Positions 49,569 through 54,428 of a DNA stretch of 64,000 nucleotides are shown here, piece after piece. Each line of letters opens with the position of its first letter. The stretch's first letter is position 1. Made by a program: the position numbers and the translations under genes. Origin of the DNA: Myxococcota bacterium (lineage in GTDB: Bacteria; Myxococcota; XYA12-FULL-58-9; JALHOP01); assembly GCA_022842935.1 (NCBI GenBank), contig JALHOP010000007.1:141592-205591 (forward strand). Reading direction: 5' to 3'. The notes under the pieces are model-generated. The model was not told the origin of the DNA. It saw only the letters and a list, made by a program, of their open reading frames with translations, and ran no database searches.

Positions 49569-50810
49569 TTACAAGAAGGTCATGCGCGCGTTGTCGCGTG
49601 CCGGGGTGAAGCCGGGGAATACGGCGTCGAGGCGCGTCGCACCCAGGTGCTTCGTGGCGACGCGCCACAACACGTCGCGGAAGTCGGTTGTCACCGCGAG
49701 GTCGCGGTGCTCGAAGAGCGACCCATCGTCGAGTCCCGGCCAGGCCCCATAGACCTTACCGCCTTGCACGCTGCCATGCGCGACCAGCATGACGTTGCCG
49801 TGCCCGTGATCTGTTCCGCGTGAACCGTTTTCGCGGACGGTACGTCCGAACTCCGACATCGCGATGACCACGACGTCATCCATGCGCTTGCCGAGGTCGG
49901 TCGCGAAGGCGTCGAGGCCCTTCGCGAACACGTCGAGGCGTTTGGCGAGCTGACCCGTCGCTGCACCCTGTGCGGCGTGCGTGTCCCAGCCGCCGATATC
50001 GGTGAAGGCCACCTGAACGCCAAGGTCCGCCTTGATGAGGGCGGCGATCTCCCCGAGCGATCGTCCGAATGCGTCCTTCGGATAGACCGCATCGTTCTGT
50101 GGCTTCATGCGCGTGACGCCAGCCTTCTCGATCTGGCGGGCCACATCGAAAACGTCCTGGGTTGGTCCGTGAAGCACGTCTCGGACTGCCGCGGCGTACA
50201 TCGCTTCGAAGCTCGCCCCGGCGCTGTTTGCTGCTTTGCCCGTGCCAAGTGAGAGGTCGCCGAGCGTCGAGAAGACCACCGCCCGGGCGGGACCGCTCAT
50301 GATGCGCGGCATGGCATTCGTGACCGCTATGGCGCGCAGCTCGGAATCGGTGGGCTTGGCCGATATCGCGAGCAGGCGATTCAAGAAGCCGTCTTCGGTG
50401 GACTTGTTGTCCGGAGTCCCGCTCTCCATGTAGTCCTGCGCATCGAAGTGCGAGCGCGTCGCCGCCTGTGAGCCTGCGGCATGGACGAATGCGAGTCGGC
50501 GTTCGTTGAAGGCGCGGTGCAAGGGCAACATGGCTGGATGCAGGCCGAAGCGATCGTCGAGGCGCAATAGCCTCTCGGTCTCGGGTTTTGCGCCGTCGTC
50601 GGGTCGGGGCAACGCGATGGTGGGACGCGCGTCGTAGTATGCGTTTTCGGCATAGGGCGCGACGACCGACAAACCGTCCACCGCGCCGCGCAGCATCACC
50701 ACCACGAGTACCTTTTTGGAGCTGGGCGCGGCACGTGCTACACGGCCGAGTAACGTCGGGGCGACGAGGCCGCAAACGCCGGCCTGTAAGAACGCTCGTC
50801 GGTCGATCAT
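49569..50810 (-). CDS. DUF1501 family protein, Tat-type signal
   Basis: 413 residues. The N-terminus DRRAFLQAG followed by a hydrophobic stretch is a twin-arginine signal. DUF1501 features include VVVMLRGAVDGLSVVAPY, SHFDAQDYMESG, GGWDTHAAQG and SEFGRTVRENGSRGTDHGHGNVM; His and Asp residues resemble those of the alkaline phosphatase/sulfatase superfamily. The role is not settled. Its start overlaps the stop of the DUF1800 gene, the usual partner of DUF1501 in many phyla. Confidence 0.9.
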   Translation of the reverse strand: MIDRRAFLQAGVCGLVAPTLLGRVARAAPSSKKVLVVVMLRGAVDGLSVVAPYAENAYYDARPTIALPRPDDGAKPETERLLRLDDRFGLHPAMLPLHRAFNERRLAFVHAAGSQAATRSHFDAQDYMESGTPDNKSTEDGFLNRLLAISAKPTDSELRAIAVTNAMPRIMSGPARAVVFSTLGDLSLGTGKAANSAGASFEAMYAAAVRDVLHGPTQDVFDVARQIEKAGVTRMKPQNDAVYPKDAFGRSLGEIAALIKADLGVQVAFTDIGGWDTHAAQGAATGQLAKRLDVFAKGLDAFATDLGKRMDDVVVIAMSEFGRTVRENGSRGTDHGHGNVMLVAHGSVQGGKVYGAWPGLDDGSLFEHRDLAVTTDFRDVLWRVATKHLGATRLDAVFPGFTPARDNARMTFL

Positions 50811-52435
50811 CGGTGCTGGAACTCCGGTGAGCCGAGCAGCAGGCCCACGGCGCGGGCGCTATTCGGGTCGTCGGCTAGCGCCGCGACGGCTGTGTCACGC
50901 GTACTCTTCGACAGGGCGGCACCGAGCAGACGACTCGCAATGGCGTCAATGAGCTCCGGAGCGTCGAGGGCTTTCTGACCATTGCCAATCTCATCACCCA
51001 CGATCTTGCGTAGCTCGATGCGTGTGCCGGGAATGCCGTTGCCCGCGAGCGCGATGCCGAAGCGCAGACGCTGGGTCAGGGCGCCGACGTTGATCCAGCG
51101 GATGGCGTCGTCGGGGTACCCGTTTGGTGTCTGCCACGCGTAAGGCATGTGATTGAGCGCGCGAAGGTATCGACGGGTGATCACATCGCCGTCCGTTTCG
51201 GCGTCCACCGCGCGTAGGCTGCTCACCACCAAGTCGAAAGGGCGCTTGACCTTGGAGCGTTGCAGCGTCGCCGCGACAGTCGCTTCGTCGAGCGCTACCG
51301 CGCGCATCACGGCTCGCAGGTCACCGTTCGTCTTGATGAACACGGCTGCGACCCTGTCGACGAGTCCTGGTGGCGGCACGTCGCTGACGAACCTGCGTAC
51401 GAGCTTCGTCGCGATGAAGCGCGCGGTCGCCGGGTGGTGTGCAAGCATGCGGAGCACCTGCAGGCCTTCGTCACGCCCTCCGTTCGTGATGGTCCGCCCC
51501 AAAACGACCTTGTCTCCTGGGTCATGCAGCTCGGGTACGAACACGGCGCGCCCTGAATCTGGGCAGCCGAGTGCTCCTTCGGGGTCGAACACAGTCCAAC
51601 CCGTGAAGACGCGCGCCACCTCGGTGACATCGCTCTGCGTGTAGCCGCCCTCGACGCCCAGTGTGTGCAACTCGAGCAGCTCACGGGCGTAGTTTTCGTT
51701 GATGCCGCGCTGCCGCTTGGGCTCCTTGCCCTTGGGGCTTCTGTTCTTCGAGGCGCGGCGCGTCAGCTTGTCGATGCGCTCTTGTGGCAGGTACTTGCAG
51801 GCGCGCAGGTCGATGGCATCGGGGATCGCCTGCATCGGCCATGGCGCATTCGGACGAACGTTGTCGTCATTGTCGAGGTACATGGCTATGGCGGCGCTCT
51901 CAGCCACGCCAACGAGGAGCTCGTCGAACGAACCAAGCGCGTTTTTGCGAACACCACGCTCATAGTCCGCTATGGCATACATGACGCCACGTTTGCGGGC
52001 AAAGACGTTGAAGTGATCGAGCCAAAGCTCAACCGTTGCTTCGTAGAGCTGTCTCCGGGTGGTCACTGCACGTACCAGGCGTCGGGCTTGCAGCGCCTGG
52101 ATGAGCTCGCCAGGCCTGTCGACATCGGGCGGTGGCTCGCGGGTGATGCCCATGCGCTCCATGCCCTTCTGCAACATGTTGGGCTTCGGGAAGCGTGCGA
52201 TGAGCTCGCCCGCGTTCGAGGGCAAGTCGTCGAGCGCGCGCACGGCTGCGTCGCTCGCGGCGTCATCAATGAGCTCGTAGGCGAGCTGCTGTTCGATGAC
52301 CGCCTTCCAGCTCATGGTTTCGAGCGCAGCGCGCTCACTGCCGCGTGGTCCGTAGCCGAAGCGCGTGAGCGCGAAGGCGCCGTTCGCGGGGACCTCGGCG
52401 GTGCAGAGGACGGTGGTCAGCCAGATGACGAGCAT
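50807..52435 (-). CDS. DUF1800 family protein
   Basis: 542 residues. ALTRFGYGPRGSE near the start, NFFxR-like LWLDHFNVFARK, and NENYARELLELHTLGVEGGYTQSDV are DUF1800 hallmarks. A short hydrophobic N-terminus suggests export. Function is unknown, but DUF1800-DUF1501 pairs are often next to each other and may act on the same extracellular substrate. The gene is divergent from the VOC operon, 115 bp away. Confidence 0.9.
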   Translation of the reverse strand: MLVIWLTTVLCTAEVPANGAFALTRFGYGPRGSERAALETMSWKAVIEQQLAYELIDDAASDAAVRALDDLPSNAGELIARFPKPNMLQKGMERMGITREPPPDVDRPGELIQALQARRLVRAVTTRRQLYEATVELWLDHFNVFARKRGVMYAIADYERGVRKNALGSFDELLVGVAESAAIAMYLDNDDNVRPNAPWPMQAIPDAIDLRACKYLPQERIDKLTRRASKNRSPKGKEPKRQRGINENYARELLELHTLGVEGGYTQSDVTEVARVFTGWTVFDPEGALGCPDSGRAVFVPELHDPGDKVVLGRTITNGGRDEGLQVLRMLAHHPATARFIATKLVRRFVSDVPPPGLVDRVAAVFIKTNGDLRAVMRAVALDEATVAATLQRSKVKRPFDLVVSSLRAVDAETDGDVITRRYLRALNHMPYAWQTPNGYPDDAIRWINVGALTQRLRFGIALAGNGIPGTRIELRKIVGDEIGNGQKALDAPELIDAIASRLLGAALSKSTRDTAVAALADDPNSARAVGLLLGSPEFQHR

Positions 52436-52501: not shown

Positions 52502-52530
52502 TTGAAATACATACCAACAGTATGTAAAGT
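52502..52530 (+). promoter_or_regulatory. Promoter of the VOC/TfoX-C/TetR operon
   Basis: TTGAAA (52502-52507), 17-bp spacer, then TAAAGT (52525-52530). The operator palindrome fills the spacer. The ATG at 52551 has AAGGAG at 52539-52544, giving a short leader of about 14 nt. Confidence 0.7.
52508..52526. promoter_or_regulatory. 19-bp perfect palindrome, candidate TetR operator
   Basis: TACATACCAACAGTATGTA: 7-bp arms around a 5-nt spacer, lying exactly between -35 and -10. Size and symmetry fit a TetR dimer, and the third gene of the operon encodes a TetR-family protein, so autorepression is likely. Confidence 0.75.
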
Positions 52531-52550
52531 GAAACACCAAGGAGTCGAGC

Positions 52551-52967
52551 ATGTCTCTCACTGGTTTTTTTCCCGTGCTCTTGTCGCGCAACGTTCAACA
52601 CGCGCAGGCCTTCTTCGAGCGCTGCTTCGGAATGGCAACGCGATTCGAGTGCGATTGGTATGTGCACCTTGCGCATCCAACGATGGCTTTCGAGGTGGCG
52701 GTCATGACCACCGCGCACGAATCGCTGCCGCCGTTCGCGCAAACCCCGGCATCTGGCGTGCTCCTGAGCTTCGAGGTCTCGGATGCGACTGCAGAGCACG
52801 CTCGGCTCGCCAGCATCGGCGTCGAGCTCGTCCATGGCTTGCGTGACGAGGCCTGGGGGCAGCGGCACTTCATGCTTCGAGGTCCCGACGGGGTCCTTGT
52901 CGATGTCATCGAGCGGATCGCGCCGAGCCCAGCCTACGAAGCGGCCTACAGGAGCGCGGAGTCATGA
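52551..52967 (+). CDS. VOC family (glyoxalase-fold) protein
   Basis: 138 residues with AAGGAG upstream. Single VOC domain: FFPVLLSRNVQHAQAFFERCFG at the start, then FMLRGPDGVLVDVIER at the end. Such proteins bind or detoxify small molecules, or sequester them. It is first in an operon with a TfoX-C protein (ATGA overlap) and a TetR regulator, so the TetR ligand may be a substrate of this protein. Confidence 0.9.
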   Translation: MSLTGFFPVLLSRNVQHAQAFFERCFGMATRFECDWYVHLAHPTMAFEVAVMTTAHESLPPFAQTPASGVLLSFEVSDATAEHARLASIGVELVHGLRDEAWGQRHFMLRGPDGVLVDVIERIAPSPAYEAAYRSAES

Positions 52968-53290
52968 ACGCGCTCGGACGTCTCGCGAATTTGGGGCCGA
53001 CGATTTGCCGTCGGCTCGCCGAGGTTGGCATCAAGGACCGCCGCACGCTCGCCCGCGTTGGGCCGGTAGGCGCTTACGTGTCGATGGTGCATGCGGCGGG
53101 GCGGCTGCTGCCCGTTTGCTACTATCTCTATTCCCTCGAGGGGGCCCTCCGTGGCGAAGACTGGCGATGCCTGAGCGAACACGACAAGGAGCGACTGCGC
53201 AGCGAGGTGGGCGTGCTGCAGGGCAAACGAGGTCGCGACAGCGCACGCGAACCAACGAGGAGTGGTCGGCGGCGACGATCGACGGTCTGA
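52964..53290 (+). CDS. TfoX C-terminal domain protein
   Basis: 108 residues. The first 75 match the TfoX C-terminal domain: LANLGPTICRRLAEVGIKDRRTLARVGPVGAYVSM, a helix-hairpin-helix-like fold. The N-terminal TfoX domain is missing, as in many stand-alone copies. The last ~35 residues are basic and overlap the TetR gene in another frame, so they may be constrained by that gene. Coupled to the VOC gene by ATGA. Confidence 0.85.
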   Translation: MNALGRLANLGPTICRRLAEVGIKDRRTLARVGPVGAYVSMVHAAGRLLPVCYYLYSLEGALRGEDWRCLSEHDKERLRSEVGVLQGKRGRDSAREPTRSGRRRRSTV

Positions 53291-53892
53291 TTCGCATCGC
53301 TCGGCGCGAGTTCGCGCAACACGGCTATGCGGGCACCTCCGTCGACCGCATTGCGCACGACGCGAAGCTGACCAAGGGAGCGGTCTACTACCACTTCCGC
53401 AACAAAGAGGGACTCTTCGAAGCGGTCCTGCGTCACGTGCAGCGCGACCTCTTGAAGCGAATCGAAGCGCCGTCCGACGAAGCTGGGGTCACCCTTGAGG
53501 CGGTTCGCGACGGCTGCGAAGTTTTCCTCGAGCTCGCGACCGATGACGAGCTTCGGCAGATCGTCTTGACCGACGGTCCCGCCGTCTTGGGTTGGTCGAA
53601 ATGGCGAGCCATCGACGCTGAGTACGGGCTTGGTTCGTTGAAGCAAGCACTAGCTGCGTGTCGGGAGGCGGGTCTACTTGGAGCTTCCAGCGTGGCGCCC
53701 AGCGTGCTCGCACACTGGCTGTCGGGTGCTCTGAACGAAGCCGTTTTCCTTATCGCCGAATCCGTCGACCGCAAGACCGCGCTTGCGGAGGCCAAGGTCG
53801 CTCTCTCCGCGTTTCTTTCAGCTCTCGGTCCGCGTCATGATGGACACAAGCCAAGCCGCCGCCCTCCTCGAGGTGGTCGCAACCAAGGCTGA
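53167..53892 (+). CDS. TetR-family transcriptional regulator
   Basis: 241 residues from ATG 53167, the only plausible start before the DNA-binding domain; this overlaps the TfoX-C gene by 124 nt. The helix-turn-helix is at about 57-77 (TSVDRIAHDAKLTKGAVYYHF), preceded by a basic tail of 35 residues. The C-terminal ligand/dimer domain is helical. It likely represses its own operon through the palindrome at 52508-52526. The ligand is unknown. Confidence 0.9.
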   Translation: MPERTRQGATAQRGGRAAGQTRSRQRTRTNEEWSAATIDGLIRIARREFAQHGYAGTSVDRIAHDAKLTKGAVYYHFRNKEGLFEAVLRHVQRDLLKRIEAPSDEAGVTLEAVRDGCEVFLELATDDELRQIVLTDGPAVLGWSKWRAIDAEYGLGSLKQALAACREAGLLGASSVAPSVLAHWLSGALNEAVFLIAESVDRKTALAEAKVALSAFLSALGPRHDGHKPSRRPPRGGRNQG

Positions 53893-54428
53893 CCAGCGTC
53901 TCGGTTTTGGCGCGAAGAGCGCCTCGCGGTCGAGCGCGCTAGGCGGTGCGCTGCAGGTTCGCGAATACCGCAAGCTCATGTGGCATGCGCGGCAGAGCAA
54001 AGTTTGGGTCAGATAGGCAGCATGCCTGTATCGATGACGTGAATGACGCCGTTTGACGCCGCGATGTCCGTCTGCGTCACGGTCGACTTGTCGACTGTGA
54101 CTTCGCCCATCGCGGATCCGTCGAGGTGTTCGTTGTCGCACGCAGGGCGCCAGACGTGTGGCTCGATGCTATGCACGATCGCGAAACAAACAAGGTCGCG
54201 CGCGGCAGACCGAAACGCGTCGCGTGGCGGCGCTAGGCTCGCGTGACGGCCCCGGACTGTGCGCTACGACGGACTGTCTCGCAGCACGCAGTTACTTCTT
54301 CAGCGGGCCATCGGGACCACTGCAACGTGGCCACTTGACTCTCCACGCCACCACGCCACCACGCTTCACGTTCCGCCGCGGCGCGGCCTTCCATAGCGAA
54401 AGACAAGCGTGGATCGAGTCCTCGGAAA
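53893..54428. other. Intergenic region with gene remnant
   Basis: 536 bp between the TetR gene and the 3' end of the GH57-like gene. The only recognisable content is the FAS1 remnant near 54009-54110 (minus). A small CGCCACCA direct repeat lies near 54347-54362. A plus-strand frame ending at 54016 is not convincing. Confidence 0.6.
54009..54110 (-). pseudogene. Remnant of a fasciclin (FAS1) domain gene
   Basis: The minus strand encodes 33 residues ending [15 protein letters not shown] before a stop, which is the final strand pair of a FAS1 domain (usual form: [13 protein letters not shown]). Upstream in frame the sequence soon loses FAS1 character. The bulk of the ~130-residue domain and any signal are gone, so this is a decayed or truncated gene. 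Boundaries at the 5' side are uncertain. Confidence 0.7.

Follow-up and report, generated by a model that had tools for sequence, protein, structure and literature searches.

Two described TetR-family repressors come closest to the locus reported here. EthR2 (Rv0078), the closest solved relative of its TetR protein, acts through an inverted repeat to repress the gene divergent from its own (PMC6016246). In Stenotrophomonas maltophilia, the TetR-type repressor DitR gives a footprint on CATACnnnnnGTATG, with one box placed between the -35 and -10 hexamers, and responds to the thiol oxidant diamide via Cys92 and Cys127 (PMC9342713). In the open-access papers searched, the operator string was found for DitR alone. 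Here we compare these systems with an operon found in the window, the whole 64,000-nucleotide stretch of a Myxococcota contig that was analysed, in which genes for a VOC protein, a TfoX_C-domain protein and a TetR-family regulator follow a palindromic promoter.

Results

Organization of the operon

The gene identities proposed in the first-pass annotation, VOC, TfoX-C and TetR, agree with Pfam, which assigns Glyoxalase, TfoX_C and TetR_N plus TetR_C_41 (Table 1). The TetR protein combines an N-terminal HTH with a ligand-binding C-terminal domain, both families scoring above cut-off, and the VOC and TfoX_C genes are coupled through an ATGA. On the minus strand, two overlapping genes (49569-50810 and 50807-52435) resemble by eye a DUF1501/DUF1800 pair; the DUF1800-like gene is divergent and starts 72 bp from the operator, and we consider its control through the operator unlikely. 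A 77-aa ORF (53783-54016) overlaps the 3' end of the TetR gene in another frame, with no Pfam match for 53816-54013 within it.

Table 1. Positions of operon and promoter features in the window
Feature	Position	Strand	Basis
-35 hexamer TTGAAA	52502-52507	+	sequence
-10 hexamer TAAAGT	52525-52530	+	sequence
Sigma-70-type promoter, TTGAAA - 17 nt - TAAAGT	52502-52530	+	9/12 matches and recurring geometry
Predicted TetR-type operator, TACATAC-CAACA-GTATGTA	52508-52526	.	single genome site and conservation
Shine-Dalgarno-like AGGAG for VOC	52540-52544	+	sequence
VOC protein, 138 aa	52551-52967	+	PF00903 6.6e-10; ATG at 52551
TfoX_C-domain protein, 108 aa, domain to about 53206	52964-53290	+	PF04994 2.3e-15
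TetR-family regulator, TetR_N + TetR_C_41	53167-53892	+	PF00440 4e-17; PF21351 3e-25

The junction between the TfoX_C and TetR genes is unusual in that the two ORFs overlap by 124 nt (53167-53290). The ATG at 53167 is the sole canonical in-frame TetR start nearby and lies 124 nt inside TfoX_C. Conserved TetR sequence starts near 53233-53254, and the window sequence has no canonical TetR start codon at that position. Near 53228, the codon-position G+C signature of the TfoX_C frame gives way to that of the TetR frame, a noisy signal over short stretches, and the GTG that starts the TetR gene of the nearest relative is matched by TCG in the window. Use of the long overlap, initiation at a near-cognate ACG (53227) and a one-base indel, natural or from assembly, are all possible; such an indel might derive from a former TfoX_C-TetR fusion.

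A palindrome within the promoter

The palindrome is a perfect 19-bp repeat with 7-bp arms and a 5-nt centre, as first described. It had also been placed exactly in the 17-bp promoter spacer, which is true of 17 of its 19 bp, the last two (TA, 52525-52526) coinciding with the first two of the -10 hexamer. Its core, CATAC-N5-GTATG (52510-52524), lies 26 bp 5' of the VOC start, within the 130-bp limit applied to relatives below. A bare palindrome of this kind is not rare, eight exact 7+5+7 palindromes being present in the window with the operator included. The specific sequence is: CATACNNNNNGTATG occurs once in the window versus 0.01 times in shuffles, TACATACNNNNNGTATGTA, the full 19-bp pattern, occurs once in the whole genome with up to two mismatches allowed, and exact CATAC-N5-GTATG is a single site in the 6.28-Mb genome. 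Since one-mismatch sites of the core elsewhere in the genome do not exceed the control (34 versus 35 for the reversed pattern) and the exact site is single, a global regulon is ruled out. Between 52300 and 54200, the operator's hexamers form the only promoter-like pair at 9/12 matches, against 0.1 expected.

Conservation of the VOC/TetR pair and its operator

A GTDB scan with the VOC alignment alone, a query that carries no TetR or operator information, yielded 80 loci. A TetR homologue adjoins the VOC gene in 79 of them (73 divergent, 6 colinear). With 9 or more of the 10 bases of CATAC-N5-GTATG required, 74 of these 79 loci carry the motif no more than 130 bp upstream of VOC, versus 2 of 4404 control windows; 49 of the 74 have it exactly and 54 have two copies. 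As a rule, divergent pairs, such as L040, L066 and L071, have one operator for each promoter, the two copies being spaced by about 30 bp (54/79 loci); colinear loci have a single copy. Record titles of the GTDB loci name Myxococcota, Pseudomonadota, Actinomycetota, Bacillota, Bacteroidota, Chloroflexota and Latescibacterota, to which a plasmid record adds Deinococcota, giving at least eight phyla.

A search with the TetR protein detects homologues in 31 of the 146 relatives, a count that includes the window's own genome. The closer ones are mostly encoded divergently to a VOC gene whose product is 36-43% identical to that of the window, and CATAC-N5-GTATG or a near match lies between the two genes. 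The recognition-helix stretch of TetR, T[RK]GA[LV]Y[HY]H[FY], is almost invariant across relatives, in agreement with the conserved operator. VOC and TetR distance matrices correlate strongly (r=0.86 over 97 pairs; permutation maximum 0.16), shared species history contributing to this value. In the nearest relative, a Sandaracinaceae MAG (L039), operator, VOC and TetR are colinear, the two genes overlap by GTGA and the TetR protein is 53% identical to that of the window. Orthologous VOC and TetR genes are present in the window, in this MAG and in 78 other loci, with TfoX_C lying between them in the window. Conservation upstream of orthologous operons had been set as the computational part of the test of the palindrome, and the palindrome is indeed kept, in many phyla, at VOC genes paired with TetR. 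The TetR protein encoded two genes downstream almost certainly has this palindrome as its operator, and VOC plus TetR is the conserved, widespread core of the predicted module.

The promoter layout recurs as well. Measured from the operator CATAC, the window's -35 hexamer lies at -8 and its -10 hexamer at +15; against the consensus TTGACA, 17 nt, TATAAT, 11 of the 99 loci with sites (window included) score 9/12 or more at these same positions, versus 0.7 expected from shuffled flanking hexamers. The operator is enclosed by TTGACA-17-TATTAT in L040, TTGACA-17-TAAAGT in L041 and L092, TTGACT-17-TATATG in L039 and TATACA-17-TATAAT in a staphylococcal plasmid. Hexamers of many other loci are weaker or displaced by a base or two, so that the spacer layout is recurrent rather than universal.

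Affinities of the VOC protein

A profile search of solved structures with the VOC protein gives as best match the uncharacterised 3vcx (E 1e-62 or better), and the next named matches are mitomycin-binding, EhpR (phenazine), bleomycin-resistance, TioX and zorbamycin-binding proteins; none of the significant profile matches is to glyoxalase I. The AlphaFold model of the protein has a pLDDT of 95. Its best Foldseek matches include 3vcx, ZbmA, the mitomycin-resistance protein MRD, the Tn5 bleomycin determinant, TnmS1/S2 and UcmS2, with FosA, FosB and GloA2 lower in the list. By profile and by fold, the protein is therefore closer to the binding proteins than to glyoxalase I, a likeness that is nonetheless remote (about 15-25% identity, E about 1e-3 to 1e-6). 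In glyoxalase I, the first strand carries a metal-binding His; the residue here is Pro8, which does not vary in A1 and lines up with the PVL of the bleomycin-resistance protein. Replacement of this first metal ligand is no more than suggestive of binding without a catalytic metal. The earlier description of this effector as a glyoxalase fold thus fits its Pfam family, while its sequence and fold lie nearer the antibiotic-binding proteins than the enzyme. Profile ranks, fold matches and the Pro8 alignment lead us to prefer a binding role over a catalytic one, although they do not prove it, and the VOC protein probably sequesters the inducer or a relative of it.

The gene between VOC and TetR

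Outside the window, no VOC/TetR locus that was fetched carries TfoX_C; Bacillota and other phyla were covered through these loci alone. A search for the VOC/TfoX_C/TetR order, proposed as a check in the first-pass annotation, did not find it in the 146 relatives, in plasmids or in 195 genomes of the phylum (Pfam), and the idea of these genes as a unit gives way to a VOC plus TetR core joined by TfoX_C here alone. TfoX_C is itself rare (6 of the 195 genomes by Pfam), and neither VOC nor TetR relatives lie near the other five TfoX_C genes of the phylum. The 108-aa protein matches TfoX_C alone in Pfam, with no TfoX_N domain, and so lacks the TfoX_N plus TfoX_C composition of competence regulators. 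Its solved relative is 3bqt (E 9e-4), and it weakly matches the Cdd1 family (E 0.14).

Genes downstream of VOC in other loci are mixed (arginase, GNAT, GST and others) and show no shared third gene. The Staphylococcus aureus plasmid pSALNBL75 (L034, 2720-4576) carries operator, VOC, DNA_alkylation (AlkD-like) and TetR in colinear order, the operator lying within the promoter and the AlkD-like gene in the slot held here by TfoX_C. A related VOC/TetR pair is found on an S. arlettae plasmid (H30, H58). What is unusual in the window is only the extra middle TfoX_C gene, whereas the predicted switch recurs; the three-gene system is a lineage-specific variant of the widespread putative VOC/TetR module and is not supported as a new kind of system.

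Discussion

The best reading of the module is autoregulated, ligand-induced drug sequestration with VOC and TetR as its core, and we infer binding, repression, ligand release and sequestration as follows. A dimer of the TetR_C_41-type regulator bound to CATAC-N5-GTATG, in the spacer between -35 and -10, would leave RNA polymerase unable to use the promoter and keep the VOC/TfoX_C/TetR operon low, the repressor's own gene included. A small molecule would then bind the repressor, which would leave the operator and allow induction of the operon. The VOC protein would likely trap that molecule or a relative, in the manner of the bleomycin-, mitomycin- and zorbamycin-binding proteins and not as a glyoxalase, and TfoX_C would be an accessory specific to this lineage, placed between the VOC and TetR genes and perhaps having a DNA-associated protective function. 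We put at about 0.8 the probability that TetR represses the promoter through the palindrome and leaves it when a ligand binds. The ligand switch first proposed for the locus is upheld in its conserved operator, its VOC/TetR pairing and, in a subset of loci, its spacer geometry, though not as a three-gene unit. A point against this reading is that most divergent relatives have two operators and the window one.

A chance palindrome, with TetR acting elsewhere and the promoter unregulated, might be suspected from the seven further perfect 7+5+7 palindromes in the window; recurrence of the exact motif, its place and its geometry across phyla, together with the single exact genome site, makes this very unlikely, and we reject it on the cross-phylum conservation. 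A different question is what the VOC protein does within the same switch. It might be an enzyme, either a metal-dependent lyase or a thiol transferase, that breaks down the electrophile to which the repressor responds, since GloA and FosA/FosB belong to the VOC superfamily and appear, if lower, in the fold list, and since DitR, with the same operator, responds to a thiol oxidant (PMC9342713). We consider this enzymatic role rather doubtful, because the characterised proteins nearest to it in sequence bind without catalysis and because of the proline found at the glyoxalase I metal-His site.

The switch might alternatively serve in genotoxin defence, with a DNA-damaging inducer, a VOC protein that sequesters it and a variable middle gene that handles damaged DNA. 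The Foldseek neighbours of the VOC protein include binders of DNA-damaging agents (presumably bleomycin, zorbamycin, mitomycin, enediynes for TnmS1/S2 and UcmS2, and thiocoraline for TioX), pSALNBL75 carries an AlkD-like middle gene, and the weak Cdd1 match of TfoX_C points the same way. However, a middle gene occurs in two cases only, genes downstream of VOC elsewhere are mixed, and drug-binding VOC proteins protect against other compounds too, such as phenazines (EhpR), so that we regard this as unlikely. Still more speculative is the broader notion of a widespread VOC drug-trap and TetR sensor directed against a common class of DNA-damaging natural products, in which some lineages capture a DNA-protecting third gene; if true, the TfoX_C domain would gain a role outside competence, with an AlkD-like counterpart in staphylococci.

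Under the preferred reading of ligand-induced sequestration, the VOC protein may count among the antibiotic-resistance factors that have gone unrecognised, and the TfoX_C insertion offers a handle on the function of that domain. As sensor, operator and effector are defined by sequence, a reporter strain would allow a direct screen for the inducer. The VOC/TetR pair with its conserved operator in at least eight phyla is apparently undescribed, as no functional description of it was found in the open-access literature searched.

Among characterised VOC proteins, the bleomycin-, mitomycin- and zorbamycin-binding proteins and EhpR are the closest by profile and fold, differing from the window's protein in all but about 15-25% of residues. 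TfoX/Sxy competence regulators have the TfoX_C domain in common with the middle protein, but they also have TfoX_N, whereas that protein is standalone. Orthologous VOC/TetR genes with the same operator upstream of VOC are found in the 79 GTDB loci and in Deinococcus, Embleya and Staphylococcus plasmid loci, several with the spacer geometry of the window; these are mostly divergent, with two operators and without TfoX_C, whereas the window has a single operator and a colinear arrangement into which a gene is inserted. EthR2-Rv0077c of Mycobacterium tuberculosis resembles the predicted module in repression of a neighbour, an inverted repeat and drug-like ligands, but has a 21-bp operator bound by two dimers and a divergent gene for a monooxygenase (EthA2) rather than a VOC protein (PMC6016246). 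DitR-mfsBC shares the operator of the window, including a box between -35 and -10, but controls MFS transporters, is divergent, has three boxes and is reported as closest to TtgW/SmeT (PMC9342713). Given the precedents of DitR and EthR2, the operator type and the proposed mechanism are of known kinds.
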